The notes below the pieces were generated by a model. That model saw only the letters and a list, made by a program, of their open reading frames with translations. It had not been told where the DNA came from and made no database searches. This document shows positions 2,595 through 20,957 of a stretch of 21,803 nt of DNA, piece after piece. Positions within the stretch are counted from its first letter, which is position 1, and each line of letters opens with the position of its first letter. This stretch comes from a virus: positions 1 through 21,803 of IMG/VR virus record IMGVR_UViG_3300014720_000216; one strand, 5' to 3'. The position numbers were made by a program, and so were the translations under genes.

Positions 2595-4742
2595 TTAACC
2601 TCCCAAACTCTGACTGCCACCTGTGGCGGGCACATTGGGATTGGTATCCACAATGTAATTGATATAACCTTCAATGCTGTAATCTGTGATGGTGCTGCCA
2701 GCTATGCTGTAGGTGTAACCTGTAAAACCAATTGGAGCAAGACTCAAATCTCCACCAATTCTAAATTCTGTTTCTCCCATGTATCTTATTTTGTATCTAT
2801 AACTTTTGGCCAATACTATTGGTTCATCAATGTTATTGCCATTAACATAGGTAAATGGCAGTGATTTTTTTACCACCAATGTGTTGCCTTGAAACACATC
2901 AATGATCACACGATTGACCAATGTGGATATGGGTTGTCTAAATCTTAGTGATGTGGTTCTTGCTCCATAAAATGGATATCCCTGAGCAGTGCCATCGCCA
3001 TTTTTAACAAATGTAAATAATCCTTGTGAATATTGACTCAACCAATCACTGGATGGAGAAATTCTTCGCACACAAGGATTCAATGCTGTGTATGCATCCA
3101 GTTGAGATGGGTTAGTTTTAATAACCCAACCCTGAATGTATCTGATAGGTGGTGGTGGTGGCGGTGGTGGCGGTGTGGGTGGTAGGGGTGGCACAACAAT
3201 AGCAGGAGGTGTGGGTGGTGGCGGATTTTCTGGCAAAAACACCGGCGGTGGTATGTCTATCTGCGGACCCGGCACATAGGGATAATTGGTGGCCACGTGT
3301 TCAGTGCAACTTATACTGATCGTGCCATCCACATTCAATTTCATATTGATCACTCTGAATGTTTTGTTGCTGAGATTCAACACACTGTCAGTGATGCGTA
3401 TGATGTCACCAGGTATCACATCTATCAATTCTTGTGTGGCAATAAATTCAATACCAGATTGATTTCTACTTTTTTTGTAGATGCTTTCGGCCATAAATTT
3501 TGCAATGTAAGCACTGCTGATGGTGCCGAATGTGAATTCACCTGTGAGTTCTTCATCTTGATCCACTGTCAAATCTCCACTCACACGATGCACAGCTTGT
3601 TGCACAGTGAAATCTATGTTGGGATCCACATAATTCACAATCACTTGATTGTATTTGGTACCTTTGGTTTCACCTGTGAGTGTGATGCCTCCCACAATCT
3701 CTGATTTGTCCACATCATAAGCAATGCTCACTGTGGCACTGGTAATATCTGTGGCATTGCCACCATCTTCCACAATCAATTTGTATCTGCCCTGCACATA
3801 TGGCATCATGCCTCTGCATCCACCCACCAACACTTTCACATTGTCAATTAATTTTTGTTTGGTGTCCATCACAGCACAACAGGTCATGGCCTGTCCAGTG
3901 GTGGTTGCAAAATAGGTCACTGTTTGATTGAATTTGGTTGCTGCCGTTTTGAAACTGTCAGCATCAATTTCATCTCTGCTGATGCCACAACCATATCTGG
4001 GATTCATCATGTAATCCAGCAAACAATTGGCAGGATTGGTGCCTTCCACACCAGTATAGGTCTTGGTGAGACTGCCATAAACTGCACTCAATTGAGCACC
4101 TGTGGTGTGAGTGGTCACATCAAAAACTTTTCGGCCACACACATCAAATTGCACAGTGGGCACACCACCTTGATAAGGGTTGGCATCTGCTTCTGCTTGT
4201 GTGGTAATGGTGCGCCATTCAAATCTCATGGCCACATAGGCCACACCCGGCAATGTTCTAGATTTTGTAGGCCAGCTGGGTGTTTGATTCAGTAATGTGC
4301 TCTGTGATTGATTTTCTGTGCCTGTGAATACCTGCAATTGACAACGCCCTGCGTATTTGCCTTCAGTCACATCTATGATTGTGCCCACTGCATAAGTGCC
4401 TGCTGCAGGTTGTGGCAATGCTTCATCATCTATTAATATTTTTTTTATGCCAGCAATTTCGCCTTCACACACCACATAGCACACGTACAAATAGCTGTTG
4501 CTGGTGCCGTTGGTCTCCACAAATATGATGGTGCCACCCACGCGTCTAAAACCATAGATCACAGGTATCTGTTCATTGGTGCCGAATTTATTCACCAGCA
4601 CACCTTGTTCTCGTGCAGCATCACCCACATCAGGTGCGCCCATGGGTTTGATGTTGAATCCAAAGAAATCTCCCACAAATCCCACCACCTTTTTGAACAC
4701 CTTGGCGATGGGTTTAACTATGGCATCTACCACTCCGCCCAT
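2595..4742 (-). CDS. Central tail hub / host-specificity protein, lambda J-like (TipJ), 715 aa
   Basis: The start chosen is ATG at 4742, which overlaps the stop of the GNAT-like gene as TAATG; an in-frame ATG at 4778 lies inside that gene and has no better signal. Residues 59-70, IPVIYGFRRVGG, and the LLDYMMNPRYGCGIS segment near residues 240-255 are characteristic of J-like tail tip attachment proteins, which close the tail tube and hold the fibres. An amphipathic N-terminus (residues 1-30) is followed by hub domains to about 490, then a proline linker (about 498-531, with nine Pro in a row) and a C-terminal domain of about 180 residues whose DNA is more A+T-rich. At 715 residues it is shorter than lambda J (over 1100). 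Host contact is expected through the C-terminal part or attached fibres. Confidence 0.9.
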   Translation of the reverse strand: MGGVVDAIVKPIAKVFKKVVGFVGDFFGFNIKPMGAPDVGDAAREQGVLVNKFGTNEQIPVIYGFRRVGGTIIFVETNGTSNSYLYVCYVVCEGEIAGIKKILIDDEALPQPAAGTYAVGTIIDVTEGKYAGRCQLQVFTGTENQSQSTLLNQTPSWPTKSRTLPGVAYVAMRFEWRTITTQAEADANPYQGGVPTVQFDVCGRKVFDVTTHTTGAQLSAVYGSLTKTYTGVEGTNPANCLLDYMMNPRYGCGISRDEIDADSFKTAATKFNQTVTYFATTTGQAMTCCAVMDTKQKLIDNVKVLVGGCRGMMPYVQGRYKLIVEDGGNATDITSATVSIAYDVDKSEIVGGITLTGETKGTKYNQVIVNYVDPNIDFTVQQAVHRVSGDLTVDQDEELTGEFTFGTISSAYIAKFMAESIYKKSRNQSGIEFIATQELIDVIPGDIIRITDSVLNLSNKTFRVINMKLNVDGTISISCTEHVATNYPYVPGPQIDIPPPVFLPENPPPPTPPAIVVPPLPPTPPPPPPPPPIRYIQGWVIKTNPSQLDAYTALNPCVRRISPSSDWLSQYSQGLFTFVKNGDGTAQGYPFYGARTTSLRFRQPISTLVNRVIIDVFQGNTLVVKKSLPFTYVNGNNIDEPIVLAKSYRYKIRYMGETEFRIGGDLSLAPIGFTGYTYSIAGSTITDYSIEGYINYIVDTNPNVPATGGSQSLGG

Positions 4743-5227
4743 TATGACAATCCTTTCATATGAATATATCCCACACAATCAGCACCTTTGCTGCGATAGA
4801 ACGACTGTGCTCTGTCCAAAAATCTCACAGTGGGTTTGAATTCTGCTGTGTGTGCCACACACATGGCCTGCATCATTTTGGCACCAGCTGCATAGAAGAA
4901 ATCTTCACAGGCCTCCCACATCTGATCAGATAAACTTTTTTGACGTGCTTCTGGATGCACAAAAAACATCACCACATTGCCTATCACTGTGTCATTGTAT
5001 AATTTTTTGCTGACCTGCGCCACAGCATAGGCCACAATTTGTTGATCTTGTTCGCACACAAATATTCTAAAATTTGGATCAATCATGGCCTGTCTCAATC
5101 TATCAAAACAAACTTTTTCATCCAGTGGATCATGTGAGGCCAATTCAGCACTCTTGCCGTGCTCGTGTATGATGGGCATCAATCTATTGATTTCTTTGGG
5201 TTGTAATACTCTTATGTGATGTATCAT
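4742..5227 (-). CDS. GNAT-like acetyltransferase-fold protein in tail module, 161 aa
   Basis: The start is the ATG at 5227 (MIHHIRVLQPKEINRLMP), which overlaps the preceding stop as TAATG; an in-frame ATG 15 bases upstream is inside that gene. The order of elements fits a GNAT fold: an N-terminal helix and loop, a central strand FRIFVCEQDQQIVAYAVAQV, then VIGNVVMFFVHPEAR followed by the helix SLSDQMWEACEDFFYAAGA and a late FYRSKGADCVGYIHMKG strand pair. The usual acetyl-CoA loop Q/R-x-x-G-x-G/A is degenerate here (RQKSLS has no glycine), so activity is doubtful. It lies between a DUF2163-like protein and the hub, where lambda-like and gene-transfer-agent modules usually carry an NlpC/P60 peptidase. 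It may be a virion or assembly protein. Confidence 0.75.
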   Translation of the reverse strand: MIHHIRVLQPKEINRLMPIIHEHGKSAELASHDPLDEKVCFDRLRQAMIDPNFRIFVCEQDQQIVAYAVAQVSKKLYNDTVIGNVVMFFVHPEARQKSLSDQMWEACEDFFYAAGAKMMQAMCVAHTAEFKPTVRFLDRAQSFYRSKGADCVGYIHMKGLS

Positions 5228-5805
5228 TATACTTTGCCCCATCTGATATCTTTGAGAGTCACAGCACTGAATTCCATACTTTGGTCTGTGGGGTGCTCCA
5301 CTTGAAAGTTGCCCTGATTGGTTCGGCGACCTGATCGCTTGTCAAAATTGATGAACTGACTGCTGATCTGAATGGTTATTTCTGCTGTGTTGATATCATT
5401 TCTCACACTGTATCCACTGATTCTGCCTCTGAATATGGTAATAGCATTTTCACCTGCTGAATCACCTATCAATTGATTGGTGCTGAAATTGATGAATCCT
5501 CTGCGAATGGTCACCAACTGATTAATCTGAGCACTGGTGGCAAATGACGTCACATCATTAACATTCAGAGCACTCAGTGTGATGGTGGCACTCACAATCT
5601 GCACATCAGCATTCTCTTCTGTTTCGCTGACATTTAGAAAAGCTCCTTGAGCAGTGTAAGTGTTAGAGTTGAAAGTGATATTGTAAGGAGCGTCTGTGTA
5701 TCTAGTGGTGCTGCCATTGGCCATGCCTATGTCTATCAACAGCACACTGATAATGCTGTTGCCAGCAAGATAAACATTTTGATCTGTGGTAAGATTCCTC
5801 ACCAT
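5227..5805 (-). CDS. Minor tail protein, DUF2163-like, 192 aa
   Basis: The start MVRNLTTDQNVYLAGN is followed by IISVLLIDIGM, a TRYTDAPYNITFNSNTY strand, QGAFLNVSETEEN and ITLSALNVNDV, a pattern like the DUF2163 / BR0599 tail proteins that sit next to the hub in gene transfer agents and lambda-like siphoviruses. The middle, IRRGFINFSTN and ITIFRGRISGYSV, is also typical of distal tail proteins that ring the tube end. It starts on a TAATG overlap with the gene before and ends on one with the gene after, so three tail-tip genes are coupled. The family assignment is by pattern and position only and could instead be lambda gpL-like. Confidence 0.75.
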   Translation of the reverse strand: MVRNLTTDQNVYLAGNSIISVLLIDIGMANGSTTRYTDAPYNITFNSNTYTAQGAFLNVSETEENADVQIVSATITLSALNVNDVTSFATSAQINQLVTIRRGFINFSTNQLIGDSAGENAITIFRGRISGYSVRNDINTAEITIQISSQFINFDKRSGRRTNQGNFQVEHPTDQSMEFSAVTLKDIRWGKV

Positions 5806-6431
5806 TAGATAGTCTCCTGTACATCCACCCTGTATGCTACCAATCCATCATTGGTGTATTGAAACTCTTGCAAATCACTGGTGGCAAACATTTTAAAATA
5901 CACGTTTTTGTAAGTGATTGCAGCACCTGGAGAAGTCTGTGTGATAATGGGGGGTTCCACAGTGAAAGTGCTGGTGCCTGGCGAAGCAGTCACATCTGCC
6001 ACCACCATATAAACTTTGTCATGTCCAGCAAGTTGAATCACATTGCCAGCTTTTATCACAGAAGCTGGACCACTGATGTTGTTCACAACCACCGAAGTGG
6101 CACCCACTGCGGCCAATGTGTTCACTTGCAATGTGCTGGGTCCATCAGTGCCAATAAAATTGCTCACACCTGGTATCTGCACATAAAAATCATTGAGAGG
6201 TCCGCGTGCTTTGGCAAAGAATGCTTGTATGGGTCTGTATTCTGCCTGAGTGCCTGGCACGAATTGCAGAGTGCCTGCCCACAGTGTGGTGGCCGTGCTC
6301 ACACGCACCGATCTGCCACTCTGAGTCTGTGTGATCTTGGTGATGTTTCTCTGTTGGAAATTAACTGCTGTGAATCCTATGTCTGTGGCCAGTGTGGCCG
6401 ATGCTCCGTTGAGATAACCTATGTTGGCCAT
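5805..6431 (-). CDS. Distal/minor tail protein, 208 aa
   Basis: This protein follows the tape measure directly (TAATG overlap at 6431) and precedes the DUF2163-like gene (TAATG at 5805), the position of distal tail proteins (lambda gpM, gene-transfer-agent distal protein). It opens MANIGYLNGASATLATDIGF, continues with VNFQQRNITKITQTQSGRSV and has LWAGTLQFVPGTQAEYRPIQAFF, a tail-ring style beta pattern. A middle insert of about residues 100-155 (LQVNTLAAVGATSVVV to IKAGNVIQLAGHDKVYMVV) looks like a separate small beta domain often inserted in such proteins. There is no membrane segment. The tail role is well supported by context; the exact family is not. Confidence 0.75.
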   Translation of the reverse strand: MANIGYLNGASATLATDIGFTAVNFQQRNITKITQTQSGRSVRVSTATTLWAGTLQFVPGTQAEYRPIQAFFAKARGPLNDFYVQIPGVSNFIGTDGPSTLQVNTLAAVGATSVVVNNISGPASVIKAGNVIQLAGHDKVYMVVADVTASPGTSTFTVEPPIITQTSPGAAITYKNVYFKMFATSDLQEFQYTNDGLVAYRVDVQETI

Positions 6432-8452
6432 TATTGTGTCACTCCTACTCTGCCGCGTTTGTTGGTTGCTTCGTTGATGATGCCCACTATGGTGCTTCTG
6501 CGATTGATCAATATTTCATCAAATCCATCTGCATCCACTGTGCTAATATTGAAGTTCACAGTTGTGCTGCCCATGTTGAGATTTTCGTTTGGTATGATTG
6601 TACCAGTTTGTCGAGGCACATATAGTTCTGGTCCTCGCTCACCCACAATAGAGGGTCTGCTGCCCGGAATGGTGCCACCATCTGCAAATCCAAATAAACT
6701 AAGGAAACCACCAAATCCTCCACCACCACCTCCGCCAAAGGCAGCAAGTGTTGCCTGCAAAGCAATTTGACGTGTCAACGCAGTGTTTTGTCTTCTGATT
6801 AAATTTTCTTGTATTGCTGCATTTTCATTTCTTCTTTTTTCAATATAATCTAATATTTTTGTGTAAGCAATTTGTAACAATAATCTTATGCCCAATTCAA
6901 TCACACCACTTATGAGTTTGGTTACAAATTCTTTTGCTATTTCAGCAAAAGTAATTTTGATTTTTTCTCCATAAACCAATGCTCGTGCCAGACCATCTGC
7001 AAATCCTTTTATGCCTCTGTTTATGGTATCAATCAACAACACACCTATGCTGTCTAAATTCAATAAATTTTTAATCAATTGATCGTTTTGCGCTTTAAAA
7101 TTCAGCAATGTATTTTTGGACGCCAGCTCAATTTTTTGCATCAATGAAAGTTCAACTTTTTTGGTTGCTGTGGTTTGATCCTTGGTATCTTTGCCATCTC
7201 TCTGTGTTTTATTGAATCCTTGCACAGCGTTTTTGGCAGCATTCACTTGATTTTTGAAGTCTTCAAAACTGCTGATGTCAATGCCCACTTGCTTGGCCAA
7301 ATCTTTGAGATAATCAGTCATGTCTTCAAATGGTTCTGATTCAACAATTGTGTCCAACAATTTGCTGAATGCACCTGTGAGTTTCTCAATGCCCACAGCA
7401 ATCAGTGTGGCGCCAAGTATCAATGGATTGGCCAACGCTGCTCTGCTTAAAAATATTATTGCAGCTGCCGCAGCGCGAACTGCCTTCACAAGTCCTCCAC
7501 CAAATGCCAGCGCTATCTGCAACACGTTGACAGCGATTTTCAATCCAAAGAATGCTATGAACGCACCACCCAAGAACACAATGTTCTTCACAACCAGTTC
7601 AACTGCTGCCGCAGCGACCAGCATAGCTCTGCCCAGACCTTCACCTATTTGTCTGATTAATTCAGGATTGTTTTTGATAAATTCGTTGGTCCTGTCTATG
7701 ATTTGTTTGAATGCTCCGCTGAGTCCTGCATCACCCAACGCCTGTTGCACATTGGAAACATTCTTTTGTAATTCAGCAAGACTGCCTGCCAGTGTGTTGT
7801 TGAATTGATTGGTAGCGCTGCCAAATCTTTCACCCAAACCCTTTGCTAGATTGTCCAATACAATCCTGCCACCTTCAGCACTGTCAGCAAATTTAACAAT
7901 CTGCTCTCTGCTCATGCCAAGGCGTTTGCCTAACACGTCAAAAACTGGTATGCCCATTTCAGCAAGTTTGTTCAGTGACTTCTGCTCAACCCCACCACCC
8001 TGCATGGCCTTACTGTATAATTTGGTAATTTCTTCCAGTGCATCAGTTTTATTGGTGCTGATTGCTGCCACGTTGCTGAATTCTTTGAATAGCGCAATGT
8101 TTGGGTAGATGCCTGCATTGCGCAATTGTGTGTATGACTTGCCCAATTCATCTGTGGTAAAAATTGTTTTATTGGCAGCACCTCTAATGATATCAAATGC
8201 CACAGCACCTTTTTCAGCGCTGCCTTCCACTCCGGACAAACTGACTTTGAGTTTGTCCATGTTGGTGCTGGTTTCTATGATGCCTTTGAGTGTGACTTTG
8301 GCGCCTATGGCAGCAATGGCAGCACCTGCAAGTGCGGCGAGTCTGTTCACGCCCAACAAACCTCGGTTTAGGTTGGCAAGGTTTCGCTGTACCGTGCTCA
8401 GACCACGCGCTGTATTATCTATGACGTTTAATACTATGTTTTGCTCGGCCAT
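6431..8452 (-). CDS. Tail tape measure protein, 673 aa
   Basis: It fixes tail length by spanning the tube during assembly. The N-terminus (IVLNVIDNTARGLSTVQRNL) and the GVNRLAALAGAAIAAIGAK segment are typical. Residues about 60-260 resemble the lambda-type tape measure domain, with LRNAGIYPNIALFKEF and KLAEMGIPVFDVLGKRLGMS. About residues 270-355 hold several hydrophobic stretches (for example NIVFLGGAFIAFFGLKIAV), which may enter the host membrane. A glycine run near residues 572-580 precedes FADGGTIPGSRPSIVGERGP, a C-terminal motif widespread in tape measures. By the usual rule of about 0.15 nm per residue the tail would be near 100 nm. The ATG at 8452 lies inside the frameshifted chaperone extension, 35 bases of overlap plus stop, as usual for this gene pair. 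Confidence 0.95.
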   Translation of the reverse strand: MAEQNIVLNVIDNTARGLSTVQRNLANLNRGLLGVNRLAALAGAAIAAIGAKVTLKGIIETSTNMDKLKVSLSGVEGSAEKGAVAFDIIRGAANKTIFTTDELGKSYTQLRNAGIYPNIALFKEFSNVAAISTNKTDALEEITKLYSKAMQGGGVEQKSLNKLAEMGIPVFDVLGKRLGMSREQIVKFADSAEGGRIVLDNLAKGLGERFGSATNQFNNTLAGSLAELQKNVSNVQQALGDAGLSGAFKQIIDRTNEFIKNNPELIRQIGEGLGRAMLVAAAAVELVVKNIVFLGGAFIAFFGLKIAVNVLQIALAFGGGLVKAVRAAAAAIIFLSRAALANPLILGATLIAVGIEKLTGAFSKLLDTIVESEPFEDMTDYLKDLAKQVGIDISSFEDFKNQVNAAKNAVQGFNKTQRDGKDTKDQTTATKKVELSLMQKIELASKNTLLNFKAQNDQLIKNLLNLDSIGVLLIDTINRGIKGFADGLARALVYGEKIKITFAEIAKEFVTKLISGVIELGIRLLLQIAYTKILDYIEKRRNENAAIQENLIRRQNTALTRQIALQATLAAFGGGGGGGFGGFLSLFGFADGGTIPGSRPSIVGERGPELYVPRQTGTIIPNENLNMGSTTVNFNISTVDADGFDEILINRRSTIVGIINEATNKRGRVGVTQ

Positions 8453-8944
8453 CTTCCATTACCCTTTTTTGTTCATCATACTGGAGCTCATAATAAGCGC
8501 TCCATAACTTTAGTTCCTGGACAGAGAACTGCATAACCTCTTCAATGCTCTTGTGTAGTTTTTCTGCCAAAAAAAACAAGAACATTGCTTCTCTGTCCTC
8601 TTTTAGTTTTTTTTTAGTTCATCCAAATTCATTTCTTCTTGACTGTTAAGAACAGATGCGACCTTTAACAAAACTTTAGGATCAACCTCGTTCATCAATG
8701 TAAACTTGTCAAATTTGTTAAACATGGGTTTGCCTTCTGGGTCCAATGATTTTGCAATCACACTTTCAACCAATGCTTCAACGGTTTTTCCTTGTTGTTG
8801 CAATTCAATTATGCGACTTTCTGTTGCAAATGAATTGGTTTGTCTGTAATAAATGTCAGTTTGCCATTCTGGCACTGTCATTTTTTTTAACGTTTGATTA
8901 AACTGCGACGTAAAATGTTTTTTGGCATTATCTAATATACTCAT
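8415..8944 (-). CDS. Tail assembly chaperone, -1 frameshift product (gpGT-type), about 176 aa
   Basis: The 0-frame product ends CTA AAA AAA AAC TAA. A -1 slip on A-AAA-AAC at 8612-8606 leads into a frame that stays open 63 more codons to TAA at 8415. The extension starts LKEDREAMFLFFLAEKLH and contains VMQFSVQELKLWSAYYELQ, with the Trp and Tyr-Tyr pattern seen in second tail chaperones such as lambda gpT and HK97 gp14-like proteins. It overlaps the tape measure start, the usual layout. In lambda-like phages a small fraction of ribosomes slip and the long form recruits tape measure and tube protein. An in-frame ATG at 8585 could instead start the extension alone (56 residues), but the slip site makes frameshifting the better reading. 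Confidence 0.8.
8603..8944 (-). CDS. Tail assembly chaperone, short form (gpG-type), 113 aa
   Basis: The gene lies between the gp10-like protein (ATGA overlap at 8941-8944) and the tape measure, the usual place of tail chaperones. It starts MSILDNAKKHFTSQFNQTLKKMTVPEW; WQTDIYYRQTNSFATE and the following RIIELQQQGKTVEALVESVIAKSLD are like small tail chaperones of lambda/HK97 type. It contains DPEGKPMFNKFDKFTLMNEVDPKVL, a pattern also found in phage tail chaperones that measure stoichiometry by conserved Phe and Asp. It ends NLDELKKN at a nine-A run that is the slip site. This is the major unshifted product. Confidence 0.85.
   Translation of the reverse strand: MSILDNAKKHFTSQFNQTLKKMTVPEWQTDIYYRQTNSFATESRIIELQQQGKTVEALVESVIAKSLDPEGKPMFNKFDKFTLMNEVDPKVLLKVASVLNSQEEMNLDELKKN
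8606..8612 (-). promoter_or_regulatory. Programmed -1 ribosomal frameshift slip site (A AAA AAC)
   Basis: The coding strand holds nine A then C (8615-8606), read CTA AAA AAA AAC, with the 0-frame stop TAA immediately after. A AAA AAC obeys the X-XXY-YYZ rule for tandem -1 slippage. No strong downstream stem is visible, only a weak AGAA/TTCT pairing, so slippage would depend on the A run and the adjacent stop. Confidence 0.75.
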
Positions 8945-9234
8945 CTATATCTCCTTTTTGATATTTCTTTAATGGTTGGTTCTATCATTCCGTTGGGTGC
9001 CTGTGTGCTGGATCCTTCTTCCAGTCTGCCTATGTATGGCACACGGTTTATGATGCTGTTGCCTTTGCTGCTGCGCATCATGCGCCATCCTTGCCTTGCT
9101 GTGCCTAATTTGATTGGTGTGTATTTTTTTACAGTAACCAACACATCTGTGCTAATTTTTTCAAGCAATTTTTTTGATTGACTCTTCAAATCTTGCATCA
9201 GTTGGTTAGCGTTAGTTACTGTAATTTTTATCAT
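8941..9234 (-). CDS. HK97 gp10-like tail/neck protein, 97 aa
   Basis: The protein starts MIKITVTNANQLMQDLKSQ, has VLVTVKKYTPIKLGTARQGWR (the common 'K-x-TP-x-x-x-G-x-A-R-x-G-W' signature) and NRVPYIGRLEEGSSTQAPNG before a basic C-terminus. This is the pattern of HK97 gp10-like neck or minor tail proteins, which help join head and tail. Members usually have about 100-150 residues, so this one is short. The gene lies downstream of the tail-tube gene rather than before the terminator as in HK97. Its ATG follows the tube stop by one base and its stop overlaps the chaperone start as ATGA, so it is translationally coupled on both sides. Confidence 0.78.
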   Translation of the reverse strand: MIKITVTNANQLMQDLKSQSKKLLEKISTDVLVTVKKYTPIKLGTARQGWRMMRSSKGNSIINRVPYIGRLEEGSSTQAPNGMIEPTIKEISKRRYR

Positions 9235-9235
9235 G

Positions 9236-9646
9236 TTATACGGTGCCTGTGATTAATCCGCCAGTGCCTTGAAAGTTCACTGTGGCAGTGATTAAATCAT
9301 CATAAGATGCTGTTCTTGACACTGATGTCACAATCACTTGTCCAGAGAATTTTTGACTGCCTGCTGCTGAGCTGGTAATAAAATCCACAAACAAATCGTC
9401 GTTTGATTCTGGAGAGAATGCTTTGGTTGCTGCTGTATGACCTGTGTCATAGATCACTTCCATAGATCCTGTGAAATCCAATAATCCGTTGAGATATGTT
9501 CTGCTGGTGTCTCCCATTGCAGTGTTCTCGATCACTTCTTTGGTGTGTTCCACTGTCCATGATCTGATTTCTGCTATGGCAGTTTCTGCGCCTGCTGAAT
9601 CGTTGCCGATTTTTACTTGGCCCAGTTGTCCTGTTAATGTTGCCAT
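9236..9646 (-). CDS. Major tail tube protein, 136 aa
   Basis: It starts MATLTGQLGQVKIGN, with EIRSWTVEHTKEVIENTAMGD and TYLNGLLDFTGSMEVIYDTG, then a beta-rich C-terminus ending TATVNFQGTGGLITGTV. The 'W-x-x-E-x-x-x-E-x-x-E-x-T-x-M-G' run followed by G-x-x-D-x-x-G-x-x-x-x-x-x-D is characteristic of small siphovirus tail-tube proteins, which polymerise as hexamer rings around the tape measure. The strongest ribosome-binding site of the tail genes (AAAGGAGTAA, 9 bases before the ATG) fits a highly expressed structural protein. It sits between the tail terminator and the chaperones, as expected. Confidence 0.85.
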   Translation of the reverse strand: MATLTGQLGQVKIGNDSAGAETAIAEIRSWTVEHTKEVIENTAMGDTSRTYLNGLLDFTGSMEVIYDTGHTAATKAFSPESNDDLFVDFITSSAAGSQKFSGQVIVTSVSRTASYDDLITATVNFQGTGGLITGTV

Positions 9647-18968: not shown

Positions 18969-20957
18969 TTATGCGTTGTCATCCGTAAACGTGGTTGCAT
19001 TATTGGTGCCATCTGCGTGTATCAACAACAACGTGTTGGTATCGTTGGTGAATGCGGCAGTGGGTGCTGTGAAGTTGGCAGTGTATCTTGCTGTGCTGCT
19101 CACACGAATTTCATCCATGTATCCATTGCCATCATAACCAGCATCTATCCTAGCTTTGCCCATGTGCAAAATACTTTGTGTAAAATCAATTGAGAATGAT
19201 TGTGTTGTGCCCACTTGTGTGCCATCTATAAATGCTTTTAAATTACCAGCACTGCGTGAAACGGCCACATGATACCAAGTATTGTTGTTAATGGTTCCTA
19301 CCCCTTGCAGCGTCCAACCACCTGAATACACGTTGAGCACTCCTGATTGTGCCCAAACTGACACAGCATTATTGCTGCCTGTAGGATTGGTTCCATCAAA
19401 CAACATAAAAGCATTGGTGTCTGCAACTCTTACAAAGCATTCATAGGTAAAATCACTGGTGCCAAATGCAAAATCACTGTTGTCAACTGAAAGACCATCA
19501 TTAGTGCCATCAAACAAGGCACTTGCACCACCAAATTTTGATTGTGCTGTGCTGACTTTGGCATTGCCTATGGCACTTATGCCTTTGGGCGAACGAACAC
19601 CGTTGTCATCTGTGAATGTGGTTTGTGCGTTGGTGCCATCTGTGTGTATCAACAACACAGTGTTTCTGTCATTGGTGAATGCGGCAGTGGGTGCTGTGAA
19701 GTTGGCAGTGTATCTTGCTGTGTTGCTGAATCTTATTTCATCTATATAACCATCCCAACTGTTGCCAGGTGTGGCAGTCAATTGAAAGTCTTGACCCACA
19801 ATAAAAGGTCCTGCGGCAGTATGATTGGTGCTGTCAGTGATTGAAATCACTGAGGTGCCATCCACAAACACTTTAAGAGAACTGCCAGATCTGCTGATGG
19901 CCACATGATACCAAGTGCTCGCTGTGGGCAAAGGATTGGCACTGCTCACATTAGCAGAGTTCCAATATAATTCCATGTAGTTGTCTGCTCGCATATACAG
20001 TATGAATCCACCAGAGGTGTCGCCTGAGTTTCTGGTGTCAAAGATCGTCATTGCATCACTTCTAATTCTCTGTTGCACAAATGCTTCCAATGTGAAATCT
20101 CCTGTGCCAAATTTTAGATCCGAAGAGATGGCGGGCACACTGAGATAATCACTGGTGCCATCAAACAAGGCACTTGCACCACCAAATTTTGATTGTGCTG
20201 TGCTGACTTTGGCATTGCCGCCCACTGTGATGGTTTTGGGTGTTCTGGGTATAAAATTGGTGCCAATGTCATCTGTGAACACAGTGGTGGTGTTGCTGCC
20301 ATTGCAGTGCAACAGCAACAGAGTGTTCACATCGTTGGTGAATGCGGCAGTGGATGGGGTAAATGTTGTGGTATATCTTGCTGAGTTGCTGAATCTCACT
20401 TCATCTATGTAACCGTTGAGACCATAACCCGTTCCAGCATAATCACCTATTGCACAATTGCTATCCACATAGGTATTAGTGTCAGTGTAGGTGCTTCCTT
20501 GTTGAGTGCCATCCAAAAATAATTTGGTTGATGTGCCTGATTTACACAATGCGATGTGATACCAGGTATTAGTAGATAAAGCGTTAGTGGTTCCAGTGAT
20601 TCTATCAGCGCCATTCACAAAATATCGCAAATTGTTTGCACCGCCTGAATTTGTCCAATACAATGTAGGTTTGACCACGGACCCATCTGTGCTCAATCTA
20701 AAATCAAATAAAAAGAATTGTGAAGATAAAGTTGAGAATCTAAACCATCCTTCCAGTGTGAAATCACCTGAGAATCCAAAATCTCCTGCGGAAGTCACTG
20801 TGAGTCTATCACCATTGCCATCAAATAGGGCACTTGCACCACCAAAATTGCTTTGTGCTGTGCTGACTTGGGTATTGCCCACTGCTGTGACAGTCTTGGC
20901 GGTTCTAACAGCAGCGGCGTAGGTTGCTCCAGCAATAGAACACAGAATGCCAGTCAT
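18969..20957 (-). CDS. Three-repeat LamG (concanavalin-like) adhesin, 662 aa
   Basis: Three LamG-type jelly-roll domains follow each other (about residues 30-220, 240-430, 455-640). Each starts KVSTAQSKFGGASALFDG, has a GDFTLE or SDFTYE strand, NTWYHVAVSRS and FIDGTQVG, and ends GYIDEIRFSNTARYTANFT then APTAAFTNDTNTLLLIHADG. This is the phage form of LamG_3-like domains that bind glycans or surface polymers. The last repeat linker TFTDDNA stops abruptly, as if a fourth unit had been lost. The gene starts three bases after the preceding fibre stop. Parts of the repeats are identical in DNA, so copy number can change by recombination. Its place among fibres suggests a receptor or capsule-binding virion protein. 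Confidence 0.85.
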   Translation of the reverse strand: MTGILCSIAGATYAAAVRTAKTVTAVGNTQVSTAQSNFGGASALFDGNGDRLTVTSAGDFGFSGDFTLEGWFRFSTLSSQFFLFDFRLSTDGSVVKPTLYWTNSGGANNLRYFVNGADRITGTTNALSTNTWYHIALCKSGTSTKLFLDGTQQGSTYTDTNTYVDSNCAIGDYAGTGYGLNGYIDEVRFSNSARYTTTFTPSTAAFTNDVNTLLLLHCNGSNTTTVFTDDIGTNFIPRTPKTITVGGNAKVSTAQSKFGGASALFDGTSDYLSVPAISSDLKFGTGDFTLEAFVQQRIRSDAMTIFDTRNSGDTSGGFILYMRADNYMELYWNSANVSSANPLPTASTWYHVAISRSGSSLKVFVDGTSVISITDSTNHTAAGPFIVGQDFQLTATPGNSWDGYIDEIRFSNTARYTANFTAPTAAFTNDRNTVLLIHTDGTNAQTTFTDDNGVRSPKGISAIGNAKVSTAQSKFGGASALFDGTNDGLSVDNSDFAFGTSDFTYECFVRVADTNAFMLFDGTNPTGSNNAVSVWAQSGVLNVYSGGWTLQGVGTINNNTWYHVAVSRSAGNLKAFIDGTQVGTTQSFSIDFTQSILHMGKARIDAGYDGNGYMDEIRVSSTARYTANFTAPTAAFTNDTNTLLLIHADGTNNATTFTDDNA
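19045..19095 (-). repeat. 51-bp direct repeat, copy 1 (LamG linker)
   Basis: This is identical to 19672-19722. It encodes the end of a LamG unit, the ARYTANFTAPTAAFTN linker. A diverged copy is near 20334. Confidence 0.85.
19504..19568 (-). repeat. 65-bp direct repeat, copy 1 (LamG unit start)
   Basis: This is identical to 20155-20219, about 651 bases away, one repeat unit. It encodes the GNAKVSTAQSKFGGASALFD start of a unit. A diverged copy is near 20815-20880. Confidence 0.85.
19672..19722 (-). repeat. 51-bp direct repeat, copy 2 (LamG linker)
   Basis: The perfect copy of 19045-19095, 627 bases away, at the end of the second LamG unit. Confidence 0.85.
20155..20219 (-). repeat. 65-bp direct repeat, copy 2 (LamG unit start)
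   Basis: The perfect copy of 19504-19568, at the start of the second LamG unit. Confidence 0.85.

Follow-up and report, generated by a model that had tools for sequence, protein, structure and literature searches.

A candidate −1 frameshift signal with a conserved long-loop RNA helix in the tail assembly chaperone gene of an uncultured virus

The tail chaperone locus

The window examined here is the whole 21,803-nucleotide stretch of IMG/VR record IMGVR_UViG_3300014720_000216, an uncultured virus that is probably a tailed phage from an aquatic environment. The tail genes lie on the minus strand in the order tail tube, chaperone, extension and tape measure, with a small gene of the tail completion/neck type between the tube and chaperone genes. 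The major tail tube protein, encoded upstream of the chaperone at positions 9236–9646 (− strand), was identified by a match to phrog_10528 (major tail protein, E 5e-18), and the tape measure protein, at 6431–8452 (− strand), by a match to PF20155 (TMP_3, E 3.7e-18). A gene for a GNAT acetyltransferase (4742–5242, − strand; phrog_1249 acetyltransferase and Pfam Acetyltransf_7) is also found within the tail module, directly upstream of a gene related to that of the central tail fibre J. Near the window end, a 662 aa open reading frame (ORF; 18969–20957, − strand) contains internal repeats (SALFDGxxDxLxV..WYH..SrSG..kxFxDGT) that look LamG/concanavalin-like in sequence.

The zero-frame chaperone ORF (8603–8944, − strand) has 113 codons. 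Its product matched the tail assembly chaperone family phrog_344 (E 6.3e-7) and was modelled by AlphaFold2 with a pLDDT of 88. A PDB profile search with the sequence found nothing, but the fold search with Foldseek did find the HK97 tail assembly chaperone 2OB9 as the best PDB match to the model (E 1.9e-4, probability 1.00), and phage tail chaperones in a viral structure library were matched too. In Pfam, the chaperone of the window had no match, and PF16459 (TAC_13) was matched weakly, in two relatives only. As described in the earlier note on this DNA, which had been made from the sequence alone, the ORF ends in nine A (8615–8607), a C (8606) and a stop codon (TAA, 8605–8603), reading ..CTA AAA AAA AAC TAA. 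The A run and the C contain, in the zero frame, a slippery heptamer of the X_XXY_YYZ form, A_AAA_AAC (8612–8606, − strand), which comprises the final two sense codons plus the preceding base and is followed directly by the stop codon.

The −1 frame extension

The −1 frame is open from CTA (first base 8606) through 63 codons to a stop codon at 8417–8415, and this extension (8415–8606, − strand) runs over the tape measure start codon (ATG at 8452) to give an overlap of 38 nt. Translation and ORF coordinates thus bear out the length, end point and overlap given earlier. A fusion of the chaperone to the extension would be 176 aa long, with a junction expected at Asn113–Leu114 under tandem slippage. 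The earlier statement that the extension had no entry as a gene of normal size was incomplete. A 56-codon ORF that begins with an ATG and occupies 8585–8415 is present in the same frame, and a second gene with its own start was therefore examined as a rival explanation (see below).

A profile search of the extension against gpT-type families, proposed as a check in the earlier note, gave weak results for the window sequence alone (phrog_16513, E 0.016; phrog_337, E 0.018) and clearer ones among the 35 members of the extension family. The tail protein family phrog_337 was matched by 12 of the 35 (best E 8.6e-6), and three matched the tail assembly chaperone family phrog_16513 (best E 1.1e-7). 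The extension is predicted to be helical (pLDDT 83.5), and a PDB profile search with this putative T domain gave only chance-looking matches, mostly to designed or helical proteins. The pN/pS ratio was 0.43 in the −1 frame, while the other two frames gave 0.92 and 1.48. Judged by this substitution pattern, the −1 frame is under purifying selection and is conserved as a protein.

Conservation of the slip site and extension among relatives

Chance XXXYYYZ heptamers occur in several other genes of the window (in a count of the pattern only). A heptamer or a −1 extension alone is therefore weak evidence, and conservation decides. IMG/VR was scanned with the chaperone and two of its relatives, which yielded 216 loci (L numbers below), some of them overlapping, and records of named phages were added. 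A homologous −1 extension and a slip site were found in every nonredundant relative with a readable end. In the window's lineage, A_AAA_AAC lies in the same frame at the shift point, while more distant relatives have G_GGA_AAC (L053, Dinoroseobacter phage R4C and RcCronus) or A_AAA_AAG (Pelagibacter phages HTVC111P and HTVC112P). The first approximately 45 codons of the extension aligned nearly free of gaps across the window's lineage and a sister lineage. In many relatives, though not in the window, GAGG precedes the heptamer by about 7 nt and may be a Shine-Dalgarno-like stimulator of the dnaX kind. Of the named phages, the closest relative is Phage DSL-LC06, which comes from a lake, and Pelagibacter phages come next.

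The annotation of the extension differs among the named genomes. In the RefSeq record of RcCronus (NC_042049), the equivalent product is a two-part joined CDS, with the join at GGGAAAC. The −1 extension is absent from the annotated CDSs of DSL-LC06 (L058), MED4-184 (L060), R4C (L061), HTVC202P (L225) and HTVC026P (L226). In HTVC111P (gp45, L062:1556–1708) and HTVC112P (gp41, L224:806–952), a 'hypothetical protein' is annotated antisense over the T-domain frame. Both phages have a compact 7-bp hairpin 5 nt 3′ of A_AAA_AAG, and because the sense −1 frame after this heptamer is conserved and accompanied by the hairpin, the antisense ORFs are, on sequence grounds, probably spurious. As the extension is either unannotated or overlain by an antisense ORF in these named genomes, gene catalogues of aquatic phages miss the extension protein.

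An RNA helix downstream of the slip site

The earlier note had considered the case somewhat unusual in that no strong stem followed the heptamer. This was refuted. After a 7-nt spacer, within the usual range of −1 signals (about 5–9 nt), the heptamer is followed by a stable 10-bp basal helix formed by the 5′ arm GGACAGAGAA (8589–8598, − strand) and the 3′ arm TTCTCTGTCC (8519–8528, − strand), with a 60-nt loop between them. Within the loop, an inner hairpin of 12 bp (8543–8587, − strand; 8587–8576 paired with 8554–8543) is seen in both the minimum-energy and centroid structures. Folding runs covered nested structures only. The 91-nt segment of the window folded at −28.8 kcal/mol (z −3.75), and none of 200 shuffled sequences did as well. 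For 28 nonredundant relatives, RNAalifold returned a single consensus element, namely the 10-bp helix, and a second run agreed. In that alignment, 95.0% of the cells in the helix were paired, compared with 20–44% in slid controls, and changes on both sides were found in five of the ten basal pairs. A search of Rfam with positions 8300–9000 of the window found no match near the gathering score, only matches at chance level.

As both arms of the helix are coding, a codon-preserving null was used. The mean energy of the arm duplex was −19.1 kcal/mol in 26 sequences versus −9.9 kcal/mol in synonymous recodings (z −12.3; 0 of 200 recodings as good), and pairing was still lost when synonymous codons were permuted within alignment columns (z −4.4; 0 of 200). 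For the window alone, two of 2000 synonymous recodings paired equally well. Synonymous change was 0.50 and 0.53 in the two arms versus 0.77 in the loop and 0.79 downstream. From the covariation of its pairs, we conclude that the basal helix is kept by evolution. The inner loop was likewise more structured than the codon-preserving null, both in the window's lineage (z −8.0) and in the sister lineage (z −9), and the pairs of the inner hairpin shift between relatives and show no position-by-position conservation.

Sister and cyanophage lineages

The sister lineage (around L042, which has its slip region at about 3327–3333) has no X_XXY_YYZ heptamer, and the shift point is A_AAG_GAA or A_AAG_GAG in all 56 of its loci. 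A helix is found in the same place relative to the slip site, formed by arms of unrelated sequence (CCAACACGGA/TCTGTGTTGG in L042) and in a register two bases away, and it too stood out from the codon-preserving null (z −11.7; 0 of 200). In ten sister loci, including L085, L100, L105, L109 and L113, the zero-frame stop codon is 18 nt further on, with the shift site in place and, in most, the downstream helix in place as well. In a few sister sequences, such as L100 and L109, the basal helix is not the minimum-energy structure. Among the relatives, the distance from helix to slip site is also kept while the start of the tape measure gene varies. That this distance is kept even where the stop codon has moved by 18 nt ties the helix to the slip site, and not to the stop codon or the tape measure start.

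A cyanophage lineage of 77 loci (MED4-184, L060, and its relatives) keeps A_AAG_GAA, with the slip region at about 1492–1498 in L060. A stem scan across these 77 loci found no consistent or clear downstream stem, and the stem is thus not general. To judge from the sequence of the A_AAG_GAR site, only the Lys tRNA in the P site can re-pair there. On its own, A_AAG is already known to support −1 slippage at a low level (PMC5009743).

Interpretation and alternative explanations

The gene order, the family and fold matches, the conserved slip site and extension, and the precedent of a joined RefSeq CDS support the view, already put forward in the earlier note, that this is an arrangement of the lambda G/GT and HK97 type. 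We consider a programmed −1 ribosomal frameshift of this kind highly probable, and from the comparative data we infer slippage, its stimulation by the helix and the function of the T domain. Most ribosomes would stop at the TAA (8605–8603) and release the 113 aa gpG-like chaperone. A minority, carrying tRNA-Lys (P site) and tRNA-Asn (A site) on A_AAA_AAC, would meet the base of the helix 7 nt downstream, and the ribosomes stalled there would re-pair one base back and read 63 more codons to produce the 176 aa gpGT-like fusion. The additional domain of the fusion should connect the complex of tape measure protein and chaperone with the tail tube protein, and the major tail tube protein encoded upstream is its expected partner.

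When AAA occupies the P site and AAC the A site, 10 nt would separate the P-site codon from the base of the helix. This distance is close to the spacing of known stimulators, as stem-loops 11–12 nt from the P-site codon inhibit binding of tRNA to the A site (PMC7282821). In Escherichia coli, which may not be the host of this phage, A_AAA_AAC is less prone to shifting than A_AAA_AAG (PMC5009743), and a stable helix may plausibly compensate for the poorer slip site. The lower tendency of A_AAA_AAC to shift counts against the frameshift, as do three further observations: the ATG at 8585 could give a separate product of 56 aa, the inner hairpin pairs are not conserved, and in the few sister sequences noted above the minimum-energy structure lacks the basal helix.

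RNA polymerase can slip on a run as long as nine A, and the part of the mRNA that gained one more A in this way would code for the fusion. The window has such a run (8615–8607), as do Pelagibacter phages HTVC202P and HTVC026P. However, the run is six A in 15 of 26 nonredundant relatives, seven in nine and nine in only two, while the in-frame A_AAA_AAC and an RNA helix at a fixed spacing are conserved, and a helix downstream of the run would have no obvious use in polymerase slippage. Transcriptional slippage is disfavoured by this variation in run length, and we regard it as the least likely of the alternatives. Scarcely more probable is an independent gene of 56 aa in the −1 frame, whose translation from the ATG at 8585 would depend on re-initiation or coupling once ribosomes had reached the TAA. 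This ATG has GAGG 11 nt upstream, and the annotation of phi3LM21 gives the extension frame an ORF of its own. However, only the window and the two relatives nearest to it, L001 and L002, have an ATG at this codon. Among 26 nonredundant relatives, the first 12 codons of the extension include no ATG in eight and no ATG, GTG or TTG in five. The codons that precede the ATG (LKED..) are conserved as protein, and a separate gene would have no need for the conserved slip heptamer. The search for homologues with their own start in the second frame, which the earlier note had named as a possible refutation, therefore led us to reject a separate start, as the ATG is not conserved.

It is also conceivable, if improbable, that the stem is real and has another role, for example in translation of the tape measure gene or in mRNA processing, rather than in stimulating slippage. 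The end of the stem is 66 nt upstream of the tape measure ATG. Against this, the spacer between heptamer and stem is fixed (about 5–7 nt) in two lineages whose arm sequences differ, and it is kept in relatives in which the stop codon or the tape measure start has moved.

Programmed frameshifting in tail chaperone genes is widespread, and what determines its rate outside lambda is poorly known. The frameshift described here is itself of a known kind. What looks undescribed is the conserved long-loop helix, together with its occurrence next to A_AAG_GAR in the sister lineage. The literature searched, mostly non-subscription papers, gave no description of such a helix, so priority is uncertain. 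In a survey of motif types (PMC10885494), the only mention is of a hypothetical three-two-two motif, for which CCCGGAA is the commonest sequence. We give an even chance to the broader proposal that the helix of approximately 80 nt, with a base of 10–17 bp and a structured loop of 50–66 nt inside the T domain, represents an undescribed class of stimulator in aquatic phages that drives slippage at A_AAG_GAR in the sister lineage, and that it evolves by paired changes and shifts of register while staying about 5–7 nt from the slip site. The comparative data provide a testable candidate stimulator for which dozens of uncultured phages supply natural compensatory changes, and in the sister lineage a slip site that departs from the X_XXY_YYZ rule is conserved.

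Comparison with known systems

A close counterpart is the gpG and gpGT pair of phage lambda, which has the same gene order and a low-abundance −1 fusion in which a T domain is joined to the tail chaperone immediately ahead of the tape measure gene. The ratio of the two lambda products is approximately 30:1, and the role presumed for the T domain is recruitment of the tail tube protein (PMC5009743). Lambda slips on G_GGA_AAG, whereas the heptamer here is A_AAA_AAC, and, unlike lambda, the window has an extension of only 63 aa and a conserved, covarying downstream helix with a structured loop of 60 nt. The HK97 chaperone (2OB9) shares the zero-frame fold and a frameshift extension at a sequence identity of about 20%. 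For an HK97-like frameshift cluster, slippage of 6–7% was measured (PMC3711429), while that in the window is inferred. E. coli dnaX (A_AAA_AAG plus hairpin) also combines an A-run heptamer with a downstream hairpin at a similar spacing, but the window differs in the gene involved, in having no clear upstream Shine-Dalgarno-like element and in its much larger loop.

The chaperones of the Rhodobacter phages RcCronus and RcRhea (phrog_16513 type) are comparable in having a joined CDS in RefSeq and a weakly similar T domain, and differ in slipping at G_GGA_AAC and in having compact local hairpins in place of the long-loop helix. The only named genome found with both the same chaperone and the same stem is that of Phage DSL-LC06 (OR003941), which has A_AAA_AAC, an extension of 61 codons and an 11-bp stem (GAGGATGCTGA/TTTAGCATCCTC) at the same place.
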